NCBI GenBank assembly: GCA_025558075.1
Contig: JAHLKF010000013.1
Location: 186,001-250,000 of the forward strand
Direction of reading: 5' to 3'
DNA: 64,000 bases
Source of the DNA: Gaertneriomyces semiglobifer
Lineage: Eukaryota; Chytridiomycota; Chytridiomycetes; Spizellomycetales; Spizellomycetaceae
Numbering within the stretch: position 1 is the stretch's first letter; each line of letters starts with the position of its first letter. The notes beneath the pieces were generated by a model. It did no database searches. It was not told where the DNA came from and worked only from the letters and a program-made list of their open reading frames with translations. The translations under genes and the position numbers were made by a program. This document shows, in pieces, positions 18,097 through 27,020 of this stretch.

Positions 18097-19517
18097 TTAT
18101 CTGCCCTTGCTTTCTTTGCTAGCCTTCTGTTTCCCGTCCTCGACAATCTTTCTTGCCTTCTCGGCCTTCTCTTGCAAAATTTTCAGCACATCTTCATAAG
18201 TCTCCTTAGCAAGCTCCTTCGCATCATCGCCCTTCTCCTGTGATAGCCGGACCAGCACGCTAACGTCAGGGATCTGTTGTAAAGCCTCACTTCCACCTGG
18301 TACAACCTTAACCCACTCCTGCAAGCCCTCCCATCCCCGCTCCAAAGTTGCAACGCCAGCATCTTTACTGTCGCCAGCTTTCTTCTGAACAAACTCGCGG
18401 AACTTTGCGATTTTGTCCTTGCGCTGATCGTTACTGGCTTCAGCAATGTCTTTTACTTGTTCGAAAATCTTGGTGAAGCTCGTGTCGGAAGCGCCAGTCA
18501 AAGATACTGCACTGGCAACAAACTTTCCGGAATTGTCGTTAAGCAATTGTCGTAGTTCGGGGACCTTGTCGATGTACGGTTTGGCTTGATCAAGACCCTT
18601 ATCCCACGCCGCTTGAGATTGTTTCTGAGCGAGTTCTTTGATTTGGGCAGATTTGGATTGTATCAGATCGCGCGCCTGCTTGTATGCGTCGGGAGTGAGT
18701 CCCTTGTTGAAAATCTCGTGCATTTGTTGAGACACTTCGTCAAGCGTCTTCTTCGCTTCAGGACCAGCCTTAGCAGCCAAGTGCTGGAACTCTTCGTATC
18801 CGCCACCCAGCTTTTGAGCTACTCCCGGAAATTTCTCCTCGAGTTCAGAAAAGGCCGTTTTTCCTGCCTTTTTCGCCAAATCTTTGAACTCCTTGGCATG
18901 CCGCTTCATAACATCCAAAATTCTGTTTCCTGTCACGACATCTAGCCCACTCTTATCATCTTGTATAATCTGCTTGACGTCCTTATATGTCTGCGTGATG
19001 ACCTTGTCGAACTCCTCCCCATGTTCTGATCGGATCTCGTCAAGACTATCGAAGGTCGAGTCAATGTAGGAGGACGCTCCTGGAATCACACTAGCATAAG
19101 ACTTTGTTATAGAACGAAGGGACTCCAGCGCTTCCTCGGCGGTGTCAGGTGTCTTTTCCTTGATAGTTTGCTTGGCCTTTACAGTGATGTCTTTGTAATA
19201 GTCTTTTGCAGCAGTTGCAGTGTCAACCCATTGCTTTGCACCAGAAATTCGATAGTATGTGTATCCTGAACATGATGGACATTGTTGAGCATCGACCGTC
19301 AACACGTGCACTGGTAGCTTCCTGGTGACATACCTCCGACTAGCACGAGACCACCACCTGCCGCTCCGGCGGCAATATGGGACGCGGTCGATCCGCCAGC
19401 AGGTTGTGCGGTAGATGTAGACTGAAAGCGTTGCGAGATGCGAGAACCTCCGACCCGCCGGGCAGACATGCGCGCCACATTGGCACGAAGGGTTGTGGAA
19501 AATCGTTGAATCGTCAT
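18097..19517 (-). CDS. Mitochondrial coiled-coil protein of unknown function
   Basis: Two exons (19334-19517 and 18097-19265) encode 450 residues. The start MTIQRFSTTLRANVARMSAR is a strong matrix-targeting presequence. It is followed by a Gly/Ala-rich hydrophobic stretch (AAGAAGGGLVLVGGGYTYY) that could span the inner membrane. The pattern YTYYRISGAKQWVDTA just after it resembles a group of uncharacterised fungal mitochondrial proteins. The remaining 350 residues are almost entirely Lys/Glu/Ala-rich amphipathic helix, such as AKKAGKTAFSELEEKFPG. A protein anchored in the inner membrane with a long helical domain is the likely topology, but I do not know its role. The 68-nt intron has a GTATGT donor. 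Confidence 0.85.
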
Positions 19518-19996
19518 CTTTGCGAGTGCTTTAATTAGATGAAATGTTACAGATAACTATACGTATGTTTGAAGATGTGTTCGTTGCTGAATGCTTTACA
19601 ACCAACAAGCGAGGTGCGAGCCAGGTGTCGCTCCTTTTATATTCGCATCCCCTTTGAGTAGAGCTAGCTGTACGTCACCCGACGTCATTGGCCTGTGGTT
19701 CCATCATCGGCTGGGGTCTTGTCGCCAGCGCCATCTGAGCAAATGAAGTGTGTTCATGCCGTCGCATGGCGCATGCATATGGCGTATGGCGTTTCTCGTT
19801 TTAGTCATTGCCCAGTTCAACGCATCTTGAGCGAGGCTTTGCGCCGCGCATGACGTCGAGTTGCGCGTGTTAGCGGAGTGAGGTAAGCGAAAAGACCACG
19901 TGACTGTTAACGCGCCCTTGAAAGTGACAGAACGCAACAATTGAAGTCCAAGTAATGCGCAATTACTATTTACATATGCAGAAGATGGTTGATAAC
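19518..19996. other. Intergenic region
   Basis: This stretch of 479 bases upstream of the coiled-coil gene contains a CACGTGAC site at 19897-19904. The minus-strand open frame at 19704-20072 runs through it but fits neither of the exon models beside it and looks spurious. Confidence 0.4.
19897..19904 (+). promoter_or_regulatory. CACGTGAC site 380 bases upstream of the coiled-coil gene
   Basis: This is one of seven copies of the octamer found between genes in this window. It lies farther from its nearest start codon than the others, so its assignment to that gene is weak. Confidence 0.3.
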
Positions 19997-22900
19997 TTAA
20001 GAGCCCTGGGTGATTGTTTCCTCCTGGATGGGATTCATAGAAACTTCGGAGTGAAGGTGTGTCGGCTGCCAAATAGCTTGATAGAACCTGACGTGGGCGA
20101 GTTATGCTATCTTTTTCAAAAGAGGCCGTTCAGAAAATAAGTATGCATACCTTGATATCATGCTGGCAATGCTAATTTCGCGGCCAATATCAACCCCTTC
20201 GAGCGTGGCCTCGTACTTGGCTGTCCATTTTCGCATCGATTCAACGTCATATCTCGATTTATTGTACCGAAAGCCGCCTATTAAGCTGGTTCGTGTTTCA
20301 ACTAGAACCAGCGCTAGGTCCGGCGCGTTTGTGGGATTCGACATGTGCATTTTCTCGGGTGAGCGAACTAGATCGTCGGCGGATATGTCTGCTCTTGCCC
20401 ACGCTTCAGATTCTTGAAAACTGTGGAATTCAAACTGAATAGGTATGGTCGACAGCTGAAGCTCGCTTTGCAGGCTGGTTGACGCGTAAGATTGTCCAAA
20501 TCGCCGCAGGCTCTTTAGAGATTTATTCACAGACCCTAGCAGGGCGTTGAATGTGTGATGCCCTTTCCGAGTAAAGTCCACTTTCAATGGAATAGTGTCA
20601 GTCAACGGCCCAACCAAAACGCCGTTTCGACGAAAAGAGTTAACCACTCCAATCAGGTATTGGTCTATCCCGGTGATGTGTTTGAGCACAACCGCCAAAG
20701 CAGCGAGGCAGGTCGGTTTCACGCTAGATATGCGCGCTGAAGTGCGCGAACCCCATATGGGATCGTCGGCGTCAACTTCCGCAGAGCTCGATGACGCTGT
20801 ACTTAAGCCGGACGAACTTGAGGCCATTCCACGACGGCGTCGTTGGTTACTCCATCCTTTCTGAAATCCTCGAAGGGTGTGGACGACTTGTGGACTAATA
20901 TTGATGGGGATGAAATCGAAACCGCTCGGTGAACTCGATTCCACTGCTGTTGGCTCAATTATCAGCGGATTTATTCGGCGCTCCACGCTAGTAGGTTTCA
21001 GAATGGCATCCAAACGAATGCACATGTCATCTTTGGAATAGAGCTCTGCTTGTGCCTCTCGCAAGGATGTGTCGGTGCCTTCCAAGTCGCGATTGGCTTT
21101 CGCAATGCGCCTTTCCAGCATTAGTTTCAAACGCGATTGCTCCTGTATGCATTCCCGAATGCGATTTCGAACGTATTCAATCAACGCCAGTATTTTGCGA
21201 CGGTCCTTGCTGAGTAGTCCAATATCAGTCACTTGAGCCTCCGTCATCCCTGCAAAAGTGTCCAAAGATAAGTCTTCTGCTCCAATTCTACCCTGTACAT
21301 CCCGTGGCACTTCGTGCTTGTCCAATAAAGTTTGCACTGTCCCGTCTGCGTCGCCCAAGATGCTGCGAACCAAGACAGCTTGTACTTCTTTAGAAACACG
21401 GATAACTTCGCCGCTCCCAGCGTCTAGGTATGTCATAACTTCTTCACCATCATTGTTATCAGCTTCCATGTTTTTTCTTTGTTGTCGCCAAGTTTGGACG
21501 TCCTCTTCTAGTTCTATTCTACGCTTCCTGAGCGACTCCACTCGTCGTTGGGCTGCGTCTCGCTCCCGTTGCGTCTTCTCTAGTTGTGCTTCGAGCGTCT
21601 TCCGTTCGTGTTCGTCTACGGTGTCCCGTACAACTTCAATGCACTGCGCTCTAAAGAAAGCGTGTGCTTGCTCATTACGGCCAGTCATTTCCGAGTTATG
21701 AGCAAAGCGGATGAAGTCGTGCTGCTCCTTGGGTCGATATGCATCAATAAACTCATCTACTGCAGAGCTGCTCGCTCCGGACGCTTGTAAACCATGACAT
21801 TGTGCGTATAAGCCTAGAATTTCCTTCGCAATGAAAAGGCAACTAAGTTCATCTGCAACTACCGTTGCGATAACGAACTCCACGCCGCTCGCATCGATCT
21901 TCACGACAAACAGTTTCTCCAGTTTCTCCATCCATTGACTTTCATCGGACGTAAACTCTAGGATTTCCTCGTTGGGAATTTCGTTCCCACTTCGTGTGTC
22001 CAAAAGCCCTTCAACATCAGCGTCAACAATATTCTCGTTCCGGTACAAACGGGTTCTCAAAACGCGATAAGCGCAAACAACTGTCTTAACAGCCTTCGCA
22101 AAAATAGGGATATCGATGTTTGAAAGTGAACGCCGCAAGTGAATGTACAAAGGAGGTCCGCTATAGATTGACGCTGTTGATGATTCGAGTTCGTCCCGCG
22201 TCGGACAGACTTTGGTGTAGATGGCAAGTTGATAGGGAGTGACCGGGTATTGAGTCTCAAGGTATATTTCTTCTTCTGCCGGCTCAAATGCTACTTCCTG
22301 ACTTCCGGTTAACGACATGTCGCTACCCTCCGCTTCTTCTTCAGCTGCCCCTCCCACTGCCGCGACGTCTGATTGCTGCATTTCCAACGCAGACACGCTG
22401 TGCATTGGTCAGCCTAACTCAATGAATGGCGAAAAGGGAAGTGCTTTACAAACCTCAATCGACTAGCGCTATTCTTTGCCTGATAGTGTGTCATCAGCAA
22501 TAGAAGTTTCAAGTGAGACTAACGTCACCCATACCTCAACTTTGGTAGAGCCATTCCATCGCGGAGCGTCTCGCTTTTCTTTTGGTCGCTTTGGCCTCTT
22601 AGGCTTCTGCATTTGTTTGCTTTTTGAGCTTCTTTGGCTTCCTGCATCTTTGGATTTGTCCGAAATGACCGAGCTCAGCGACAGGCGCCCATGACTGAAC
22701 TCGCTTTCCTCCGTGCTATCGTTTTCGTCTTCTACTGCACTTTGGCGCAGACGTCCTGATTGCATGATGTTTGGAACACTGGCACCTCGCTTCACCTCTG
22801 ATCGTTTTCGCTCCACGGTTGCTTGGACGCCGGCAACACGGAATGCATCCTCCCCGACGTTGTGTGATGGACTACGCTTGCGATCGTCTGCTTCTGCGAA

Positions 22901-23456
22901 ACGGCGCAATGATCCAAGCACCCCTTCTGCATGCTGTAATGGTGTTTTTTTGGTGGATTTTAACCCTCTTGACAGGGATCCAGAGAGACCCCTAGGATTC
23001 ACAGGTGCCAGAGTGTGGGGTGCATGAATTACCGGTTTCACCGACTCTTCATCTGCTCGGAGGGGAGGTAATCCTTTACTTCGAGGACCTCCAAGAGCGT
23101 TCATAGATCCGTATCTCATGTCTCGATCTGTGTCAGTGACTTTAAGACCTGGTAAGGATTTCACCCGGGACATGCGACTAGTAAGAGGTCGCGCAGTAGT
23201 GTGCACCTGCTCCCGCTTCAGTGCCACCATGTCACGAAATGACATACGGTTCTGTCCCTCATCCATACTGTGTGTGACGCTATGCCAGTCGGCCTGCAGC
23301 ATAATTCCACCAATTTTGGCGTGTTTCCCGTCGGAGTTTGTCCACACGCGTCGCTGTCTGCTTACCTCATATCGTATCAATCAACATCGCGATACTGGAC
23401 TTTGCACACCATTTCTCCTCGACGAGCTCAAAAACGTAGCTGTCTCCTGCAGTCAT
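19997..23456 (-). CDS. Split condensation-domain-like protein with inserted coiled coil and SAM-like segment
   Basis: The model has five exons (23401-23456, 22535-23357, a 26-nt microexon 22454-22479, 20151-22397 and 19997-20087) and 1080 residues. Residues 1-330 are basic and disordered. Residues 350-500 look like the first half of an NRPS condensation domain (TQYPVTPYQLAIY, YRVLRTRL, the helix IAKEILGLYAQ). About 560-615 is coiled coil, 670-712 resembles a SAM domain (FAGMTEAQVTDIGLLSKDRR), and 710-760 is a second charged helix. Residues 862-1037 look like the second condensation half (DQYLIGVVNSFRRNG, LTDTIPLKVDF). The HHxxxDG catalytic motif is replaced by TVVADELS, so acyl transfer is unlikely. 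There are no adenylation or carrier domains nearby. The microexon and last exon are strongly supported by frame. The first exon, with a 43-nt intron and a GTCCAG donor, is tentative; otherwise the start is an internal Met. The function is unknown. Confidence 0.75.
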
Positions 23457-23555: not shown

Positions 23556-24804
23556 ATGTTCGTCAGAGCTTCTACCCGGATAGCACTACCGCGGGCTGCC
23601 GTGTCTCTCAGGGTTGCCCCACGAGCCTTCTCTACTACAGTAATCGCTCGTGCAGAGGACGCTTACTCGTTTAATTTTCCCGAATCTCATTTTGATTATC
23701 ACAACTGCGGCCCGCTTTCTCTTGAGACAACAGCAACCAAGGATGAATTACTGGAAATGTACAAGAATATGGTAACCATCAGAAGGCTGGAAACGGCGTC
23801 GGATCAGGTGAGGAAGCCGTTGCTGTTTACTAGAGATGACCTTGCACGAGGTTTACCGACACCGATTGCAGCTGTATAAGGCGAAGCTCATACGTGGATT
23901 CTGCCACTTGTCTAACGGCCAAGAAGCAGTAGCAGCGGGTATGCATGCAGCCATGACTAAAGACGATGCTCTGATCACCGCCTACCGATGCCACGGTTTC
24001 ACCTTACTCCGTGGAGCATCAGCGATGAGCATTATAGCAGAGCTGATGGGACGGCGCGCTGGTTGTTCCAAAGGAAAGGGAGGATCGATGCATATGTTTG
24101 CTCATGAGTTTTACGGTGGAAACGGTATTGTTGGTGCTCAGGTCCCTATCGGTGCCGGAATCGCCCTTGCCCAAAAATACTTGCAGAAGGGCACAATGAC
24201 CTTTTCCCTGTACGGTGATGGTGCTTCCAACCAAGGTCAAGTGTTTGAAGCTTTCAACATGGCGAAGTTGTGGAACCTTCCAGTTGTATTTGTGTGTGAG
24301 AACAACAAGTACGGCATGGGAACCTCTGCCCACCGCTCTTCTGCCTCGACCAATTATTACACTCGTGGTGACTATGTACCAGGAATTCGTGTGAATGCTA
24401 TGGATGTGCTAGCTGTTCGGGACGCATCGAAGTGGGCCCGTGAGTGGACCCTTTCTGGTAAAGGTCCGTTGGTCATGGAAATGGTGACGTATCGGTACGG
24501 TGGCCACTCTATGTCCGACCCTGGTACTACTTACCGTACTCGTGAGGAGATTCAGAACATGCGCTCGAGGAATGACCCTATCACCGGATTGAAAGAGCGA
24601 ATTCTGGCCAATCAGATCTTGACAGAGGAAGAGTTAAAGAAGATTGACAAAGACATTCGTACGGAAATTGATCAAGCAGTTGCTGAAGCTAAGGCCAGTC
24701 CGGAGCCGGAGGTCTCAGACTTGTATTCGGAGATTTACACCAAAGGCAATGAGCCTGATTTCTTGCGTGGCTGTACACCCGATGAGGTTCACCGCTTCCG
24801 CTAG
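23556..24804 (+). CDS. PDA1: Pyruvate dehydrogenase E1 component subunit alpha, mitochondrial
   Basis: Two exons (23556-23807 and 23872-24804) encode 394 residues. A presequence ([15 protein letters not shown]) precedes the family start, and the join gives [17 protein letters not shown]. The thiamine diphosphate motif is [18 protein letters not shown] and ends in CENN. The phosphorylation loop [16 protein letters not shown] carries the serine that pyruvate dehydrogenase kinase modifies in other eukaryotes. E1 alpha and beta decarboxylate pyruvate and transfer the acetyl group to lipoyl-E2 in the matrix. The gene diverges from the condensation-like gene, with only about 100 bases between the proposed start codons, so the promoters must overlap. 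Confidence 0.97.
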
Positions 24805-25029: not shown

Positions 25030-27020
25030 ATGTTGGTGAGTCCAGTACGACACGGCAGCCAGTGCGTTCCCTAATATCTTTGGTTCTCCAGACAGTTGAT
25101 TTGTCCCCGTCACGGAGAACGCAAACGCGTCGTAGTAGTTCAGCGAGGCTGGACTGTTCGTCCCCCAAACACCAGGTGCCCGTACGCTTTTTCACCCCGC
25201 CTCGAGCTGCCTCACACGTAGCATGGAACGAACTGGACGAGAAGCCTTTTGCACTTTCCGCAGAGACTACAGTGGGTGAGCTTAAAGATGATCAGTCTCA
25301 GCCGGATCATGCCCGTCAACTACTGGAAAACGTCAAAACAGAGCTTCTTCGATTAGGTCAACTTTGGACCGAAGCCCTTGATGATGAAGAAGCAATACCA
25401 GATTCGAATTGGGATACCCGGATGAATGACATCAAGAAGATCATGGACGCGGTTTCAGAAGCCATTAGTGACGAGCAGGTTCGACGTGAGCAGGTGATCC
25501 GGGAAGTTGTTTCGACTAGGGCAGACCTCCAAGCAAATTGTGAGCTTTTAGAGGAAGAAATTCCGGAAGAGATGACTTCGAGATCACGTCTAAATCCGTA
25601 CCAGATACTTTGTAGGTTAAAGCGGATGAGCACGCGCGTGGACGCACTGGCTTGCGAACGCCGGAAGGAGCTAGAGTCATTACGGGCTGAATGGAAACGA
25701 TTAAGGGAAAGCTTGACAGATATAGAGGAAGCTGAAGTTGCGTCATTTCCGGAGAGATTATCTTTGCGGGCTTTGCAAGAAGCGAGATTTATAGTTGACA
25801 TTTTGCAAGCAGAAAGAGACTTGCGCTTAGATGCCCTAGCTGAGGCAGTGTTACAGCTACTGCAGCTGTGCCGTAGCCTTGATTGTCCTGTGCCAGAGCC
25901 CTATACCTTATGCTTAGATGCGCTCTCGAAGGCTGACAGTCAGCAGGACTTAGTTTTGGAAAAGGTCCGGGCAAGCCTGGACAGCGACGTATTACCTTCT
26001 CCGTTAGATTTCTCTCGAGAGGCGATACATGATCTCTTGTATGCATGTGAGACGCTGCGTACAGAGCAGGAAGGACTTTTATCAAGATTGGACGACCTTT
26101 TAAAGGAAATACAGATGTTTTGGGATCAGTTGAAAACACCGGAAAATGCGAAAAAGAATCTTGTGCGGGACATCAAGCGAATACAAGAGTATGCTGATCT
26201 TTCCGAGGAGCTTCGGATTCTTTGGCGTCGCACTATGGAAGAAAAGGTGGACTCCTTACGGACCGAATTGATTGCGCTATGGCAGCAATGTCATGTTCCT
26301 CAAGTCGAGCGTGATACATTTTCTCAGAAAGTCGAGGAGAATTTATACTCGCCTTTAACCGTAGAACTTCTTACGGATGAAATTGCCCGGCTAACCGCAC
26401 GGTTCGAGGAGTACCGCGCCTTATATAAGCAAGTGGAAGATAGAGCGGACTTAATACAAAAGATGATTGATTTTGAAGTGACGGCTTCGGATCCGAAAAG
26501 ACTGTTTCGCCCATCGTTCCAACTACTGGAAGAGGAAAAATTTAGAAAAACTTGCTTTCCCACTCTCTTGCGATTGGAAGATAGCCTACGGAAGGGAATC
26601 GCCGCAATGGAGGCGGAAACAGGACAACCATTCATATGTGATGGTGAGAGATACTTGGACCGCCTTGCAAAAGAAGTTTCGGAACGGTTCGTAAACGAGT
26701 CAGTATTTGTGATAGACCTGGGCGTGGATGGGGCAGCAACGAGTAACCGCCCGCAGACGCCAGCTAGAGCGCGAAGATCTCTACTAGTCAATGCGACAGG
26801 CACCAGCAGCCATGTTACGCCCAAGCCGAGTAGCATTAGGCGGAGCACCTCCACAAGTGCTATTGGTTCTCAAGCACGCGCTAAAAGCCCCACACCAACG
26901 CTCAGGCGGACACCGTCACGGAACCTTTCAAGCACGCCGTCAATACGAGGTGTGACTAGTTCCGGAGCTGGCAGGATCGGAACCAAACTAGGGACAGGTG
27001 CCGGCCAAACACGGCGATAG
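25030..27020 (+). CDS. ASE1: Ase1/PRC1/MAP65 anaphase spindle midzone protein
   Basis: The main exon, 25092-27020, is read from an acceptor because no ATG precedes the conserved part. An ATG-TTG at 25030-25035 followed by GTGAGT supplies a two-codon first exon and a 56-nt intron, for 644 residues. The protein is a long series of charged helices (for example LLRLGQLWTEALDDEE) with the MAP65 motifs ELIALWQQCHVPQVERDTF and LEDSLRKGIAAMEAETG. A Ser/Arg-rich disordered tail of about 100 residues, rich in SP/TP sites, follows. Ase1 dimers cross-link antiparallel microtubules in the spindle midzone and recruit kinesins for cytokinesis. Cdk phosphorylation of the tail is the usual control and would fit this sequence. 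The family assignment is firm; the tiny first exon is an inference. Confidence 0.9.

Follow-up and report, generated by a model that had tools for sequence, protein, structure and literature searches.

A probable non-catalytic adaptor of chytrid fungi built on a condensation-type fold with a coiled coil and SAM-like insertion

What does a protein with both halves of a nonribosomal peptide synthetase (NRPS) condensation domain do where no synthetase is found around it? The question is raised by a gene of Gaertneriomyces semiglobifer (Chytridiomycota, Spizellomycetales; genome 20.9 Mb in 66 contigs), encoded on the minus strand of a 64,000-nucleotide stretch of contig JAHLKF010000013.1, here called the window, whose positions are used throughout. 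A preliminary description made from the letters alone had read the protein as a pseudo-enzyme scaffold. This reading is supported by a single CAT-like fold in the predicted model of a relative, by loss of the catalytic histidines across the family and by the lack of NRPS partner domains in the protein and the nearby frames scanned. We consider it probable that the protein is a vertically inherited, non-catalytic chytrid adaptor, in which a condensation fold without the catalytic His carries a SAM-like tip on a stalk.

Family-wide counts refer to 22 sequences that align over the same core; an incomplete relative (P0023) was excluded from two alignments and from the tree. The features that define the condensation-type core are as follows.

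21641..22258, minus strand: N-terminal condensation lobe (residues 300-505), from hhalign to condensation domains of the same genome, shuffles and the relative's structure model.
20087..20926, minus strand: C-terminal condensation lobe (residues 744-1002, with intron 3 in the last codon), from Pfam PF00668, hhalign and the relative's structure model.
20582..20614, minus strand: VGPLTDTIPLK, counterpart of IGxFVNTLPLR, which we take to be a condensation-domain motif; its G, P and P are invariant in 22/22.
21848..21868, minus strand: ATVVADE (residues 430-436), a degenerate HHxxxDG, with His in 0/22 at either position and Asp435 kept (Asp in 22/22).

Pfam Condensation (PF00668) matches the window protein at 37.2 bits, above its cut-off of 30.6, and covers the C-lobe only, which is broken up by a disordered loop (about residues 770-811). 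Both lobes were compared by hhalign with five condensation domains of the same genome; these were chosen for having HHxxxDG, so that their possession of the motif is no control. The N-lobe aligned over 182 columns with a score of 38.7 (P 1.4e-4) and the C-lobe with P 3.1e-5, in each case with 0 of 200 shuffles reaching the result. The claim that the two halves resemble the lobes of a condensation domain is thus borne out by Pfam for the C-lobe and by profile comparison for the N-lobe. The test named beforehand was whether the halves pack together, and in the relative's predicted model they form the lobes of one CAT-like fold, which places the protein by fold in the NRPS condensation domain superfamily. 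A search of PDB sequences with the single protein gave no match; with a 22-member profile the first hit was the X-domain 4tx2 (E 0.0039), and with a 6-member profile the microcystin synthetase 8hlk (3.6e-4). An NCBIfam scan of the deposited G. semiglobifer protein (P0001) and of P0004 gave matches far below cut-offs only.

The loss of the active site that had been claimed for the HHxxxDG position (then given as TVVADELS, here as ATVVADE) holds for the whole family, which lacks the HHxxxDG of a catalytic condensation domain. Because no member has a His, the loss is old and shared, not local decay. The first His position is occupied by Ser in 17 sequences, Ala in two, and Thr, Cys and Asn in one each, and the second by Thr, Asn, Leu, Met, Ser, Val, Lys or Ile; Glu stands at the Gly position in 16 of the 22. 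The Arg of the C2 motif, which we take to be the salt-bridge partner of the HHxxxDG Asp, is retained in 8/22, with one gap. As the preliminary description had stated, adenylation, carrier and thioesterase domains were not identified in the protein or in 10 open frames of at least 200 aa overlapping 12-34 kb, shorter exons being unscanned; within that scope the adenylation and carrier domains that mark an NRPS are absent. We infer that the protein does not catalyse condensation.

Between the lobes lies a stretch of about 240 residues (about 360 had been proposed), of which about 210 run from coiled coil to coiled coil.

21452..21628, minus strand: coiled coil 1 (residues 510-568), a long helix in both models that matches coiled-coil hairpins.
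21392..21436, minus strand: small beta hairpin (residues 574-588) at the distal end of coiled coil 1, in both models.
21176..21340, minus strand: SAM-like helical bundle (residues 606-660), from PDB profile hits and an own-genome SAM profile.
20996..21211, minus strand: coiled coil 2 (residues 649-720), extending the last SAM-like helix, from the models, hairpin matches and conservation.

In the relative's model the predicted insertion site is the crossover between the two lobes, and the insertion starts from and rejoins the same folded body. VIA-align with the window protein's own model matched the hairpin to the stalks of SMC, dynein and SH3BP5, with no SAM and no condensation domain among the best 50 rows. 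For the proposed SAM-like segment, profile similarity is suggestive: four of five PDB profile hits were SAM domains (E 0.06-0.55), in register, and comparison with nine SAM stretches of the same genome gave P 4e-4 over 39 columns, reached by 1 of 200 shuffles. Its identity as SAM was not established, since Pfam SAM_1 and SAM_2 matched none of 23 full proteins (E<=0.1) and none of 16 segments (E<=10), the segment alignment holding 16 of the 22 sequences. SAM_Ribosomal_mS41 was touched by two of the 16 segments (best E 0.091). The HMMER-type check that had been suggested thus succeeded for Condensation, which exceeds its cut-off, and not for SAM. In the relative's model the region has helices predicted in an order that would fit a five-helix bundle.

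Three protein searches identified at least 22 relatives besides P0001, 16 of them with an organism name. The two core searches scored the best ~8,000 candidates by shared words, so that remote animal, protist and other zoosporic relatives may be missed; among the matches listed, none came from other flagellated lineages. Two peptide patterns run against prokaryote genome contigs gave 192 matching stretches, none confirmed as a relative. The six named relatives that were looked up belong to the Rhizophlyctidales (Borealophlyctis), Rhizophydiales (Polyrhizophydium, Terramyces) and Chytridiales (Zopfochytrium, Phlyctochytrium planicorne) and to Blyttiomyces, a member of the Chytridiomycetes without an order; together with Gaertneriomyces (Spizellomycetales) the family spans four orders. 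The remaining ten are presumably chytrids. Pfam Condensation matched 22 of 23 members (E<=0.1), P0023 among them under the cut-off. A search with the inserted module alone (641 candidates, no cap being reported) returned 20 proteins, 17 of which have a precomputed condensation domain; the remaining three are P0011, which Pfam Condensation matches, P0023, which it matches weakly, and P0021, which it does not match.

In a tree of the 22 sequences, 14 of 19 inner branches are well supported, and the grouping of members by order fits vertical descent, some of the order labels being our assumption; the branch leading to the window protein is long (1.0). Mean pairwise identity among 16 members is 28% in the N-terminus (55 pairs), 40% in the N-lobe, 44% in coiled coil 1, 50% in the SAM-like region, 56% in coiled coil 2 (here residues 661-720) and 48% in the C-lobe. 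Coiled coil 2 is the most conserved segment compared, and it and the tip exceed both lobes, which hints that tip and stalk matter for function; coiled coil 1 falls between the lobes. Two members carry odd annotations. In its deposited model P0017 (Phlyctochytrium arcticum) also contains a cyclin domain (PF00134, 35 bits), probably through a fusion made by gene prediction. P0018, which comes from a metagenome, bears the label flagellar motor switch protein FliN; its middle module matches FliMN_C at 14.6 against 23.8 bits, below threshold, and the label is therefore probably wrong.

Several points weigh against a non-catalytic adaptor. The confident structure model is that of a relative of 47% identity, and the window protein's own AlphaFold2 model (6 sequences) has a pLDDT of 48.6 and is too poor in the lobes to stand alone; Foldseek with it gave no match at E<=0.001, the top six rows being condensation-type at E 0.027 to 0.15. 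P0023 reaches only 22.3 bits to Pfam Condensation and P0021 has no match, the latter nonetheless aligning across the lobes. The SAM identity of the tip is suggestive only. Shortly after the C2-like motif, exon 3 encodes IVDADVE (P0001 residues 376-382), in which Asp378 and Asp380 are invariant in 22/22, like Asp435. Judged from these residues, the IVDADVE pair could be a candidate metal or ligand site replacing the lost histidines, and the three Asp together could form an alternative active site. Moreover, passages of PMC11546977 describe that mutation of the second His in condensation domains does not always abolish activity.

On these grounds the protein might still be an enzyme that performs acyl transfer, hydrolysis or a reaction like that of heterocyclization (Cy) domains, which use DxxxxD instead of HHxxxDG, acting via Asp435 and the IVDADVE strand. 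We regard this as rather unlikely. The first Asp of DxxxxD occurs in none of the 22 sequences (Ser in 17), the C2-motif Arg survives in the minority noted above, and neither carrier nor adenylation partner appears in the protein or the scanned frames. The conservation of the tip and coiled coil 2 above both lobes, not shared by coiled coil 1, also speaks against an enzyme.

Self-association is common among SAM domains and coiled coils, and the AlphaFold2 models used here are of single chains. The coiled coils could therefore pair between molecules, and the insertion would then be a device for dimerisation or filament formation, not an intramolecular stalk. This is less likely again, as the insertion leaves and re-enters a single folded body, most simply as a hairpin, and the hairpin of the window protein's own model resembles known stalks.

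In the proposed adaptor, a complete condensation-type CAT fold would be opened at its interlobe crossover by a coiled-coil hairpin that bears a SAM-like tip. The cleft or the outer face of this fold may bind a partner, either a protein or a carrier-bound or acyl ligand, and the stalk would hold the tip off the body for self-assembly or for a second partner, yielding a bivalent adaptor. A basic disordered N-terminus with the motifs SFRxMVxxKR and WNxST could act as a tether. Since the stalk emerges where the chain crosses between the lobes, it is conceivable, if speculative, that lobe movement also moves the stalk. More tentatively, a condensation domain of a peptide synthetase may have become a structural or mechanical element in this family, a stalked pseudoenzyme whose lobe position is coupled via the interlobe crossover to a lever of coiled coil, tipped by the SAM-like assembly module, in a chytrid-specific cell structure across the Chytridiomycetes.

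The gene comprises four exons, and its spliced product equals the deposited 1031-aa protein residue for residue; the core is 100% identical to the deposited protein BC832DRAFT_593252 (P0001). The introns measure 55, 56 and 63 bases, all GT...AG. The start at 23456 and the 1080 residues given earlier differ from the deposited model, whose start (23266) lies 190 bases downstream of the former. An intron-ignoring search of the genome with the core protein retrieved only itself, without a second copy.

22535..23266, minus strand: exon 1 (residues 1-244), encoding the basic, disordered N-terminus and its two short conserved motifs, from the splice model and an alignment of 16.
23204..23242, minus strand: motif SFRDMVALKREQV (residues 9-21), from the alignment of 16.
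22544..22561, minus strand: motif RWNGST (residues 236-241), from the alignment of 16.
22454..22479, minus strand: exon 2, a 26-base micro-exon, from the splice model.
20151..22397, minus strand: exon 3, encoding an acidic linker, the N-lobe, coiled coil, SAM-like bundle, coiled coil and C-lobe, from the open frame and the splice model.
19997..20087, minus strand: exon 4, carrying the final base of the C-lobe followed by the C-terminal tail, from the splice model.

That two genes or a pseudogene were joined by prediction or assembly is very improbable: the 244 N-terminal residues are indeed attached via the micro-exon and some relatives' models are doubtful (the cyclin fusion of P0017, the incomplete P0023), but one open frame at 20102-22408 (768 codons) holds both lobes and the insertion, which argues against the two separate genes named earlier as a refutation, and the same core recurs in 22 sequences over four orders.

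The N-terminus proved basic and disordered as proposed, with a length of about 300 rather than ~330 residues; the first 260 residues of a 1027-aa draft model, starting 12 residues upstream of the deposited one, have an isoelectric point of 10.4. Two motifs stand out in this poorly conserved region. S/T-F-R-x-M-V-x-x-K-R occurs in 7 of 16 aligned members; two models begin with MVARKREQV, P0005 lacks the motif and six have no residues there. W-N-x-S is present in all ten members with residues at that place (16 examined). From their sequence, SFRxMVxxKR and WNxST look like docking motifs.

Unlike the condensation domains of NRPS (PF00668; SrfA-C), the chytrid protein lacks HHxxxDG and any detected adenylation or carrier domain, and it adds the coiled coil and SAM-like insertion between the lobes and about 300 disordered residues ahead. 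X-domains are not known to be catalytic. Those of glycopeptide antibiotic synthetases (4tx2, 6m7l) share the condensation fold and use it to recruit a partner. According to the passages of PMC6565677 that deal with it, the kistamicin X-domain (Xkis) recruits P450 enzymes and has HRxxxDE, which resembles the D-E of the chytrid family. It differs in sitting within an NRPS and in keeping one His, and no stalk is mentioned in that portion of its description. The plant CER2-LIKE proteins, of the BAHD fold, are kin to condensation domains in the CAT superfamily. Like the chytrid family they are CAT-superfamily proteins without the catalytic His, which the relevant passages of PMC5489795 report for the HXXXD of CER2-LIKE1 and CER2-LIKE4, the motif Asp of another BAHD protein being modelled as structural. 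They represent another branch: in the same passages CER2 and CER2-LIKE1 reside at the endoplasmic reticulum membrane, the rice protein has a fatty-acid condensing enzyme as its binding partner, and an insertion goes unmentioned. A fungal condensation domain without catalysis, described in PMC11546977, differs in being part of an NRPS. The tip resembles the SAM domains of ANKS6, BICC1 and SASH3 in its in-register profile hits and in predicted short helices followed by a long one; it differs in the weakness of those E-values and in the absence of a Pfam SAM_1 or SAM_2 match (E<=0.1) in all 23 full proteins.

Because the use of condensation folds for binding is already known, from the X-domain and, in the wider CAT superfamily, from CER2-LIKE proteins, the term new protein class is too strong. 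What may be new is a complete condensation fold opened at the interlobe crossover by a coiled coil, a SAM-like segment and a second coiled coil, outside NRPS and across the Chytridiomycetes. Such an architecture did not emerge from searches of open-licence papers, judged mostly from listings, and the main text of a fungal flagellum paper (PMC13358043) does not contain 'condensation', 'sterile alpha' or 'Gaertneriomyces'.

Upstream and divergent, a gene at 23556-24804 (plus strand) encodes a pyruvate-dehydrogenase-type E1 component, whose 23836-24804 frame scores 400.9 bits against PF00676; an ATG at 23556 lies 290 bases from the start of the gene described here, and the two genes may therefore share a promoter region. 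Two genes off, at 25062-27020 (plus strand), a microtubule-associated protein of the MAP65/ASE1 type is encoded (PF03999, 130 bits), probably by coincidence. The downstream gene at 18097-19556 (minus strand) encodes a long, probably helical protein with a 7TMR-HDED match just below cut-off (26.8 against 27.6 bits), and by eye its N-terminal frame resembles a mitochondrial presequence. Elsewhere in the genome, condensation-domain clusters occur on contigs C16 (381-396 kb) and C18 (299-337 kb), several of the domains having HHxxxDG; from these, G. semiglobifer presumably has NRPS genes. A gain of NRPS genes by the Neocallimastigomycota is described in PMC11291939.

The family offers a clear case of a secondary-metabolism enzyme fold that lost its usual catalytic His and was retained and remodelled across a deep fungal split. 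A Pfam Condensation match in a chytrid need not imply peptide synthesis, and chytrid biology gains a candidate gene, of which one copy was found in this genome.
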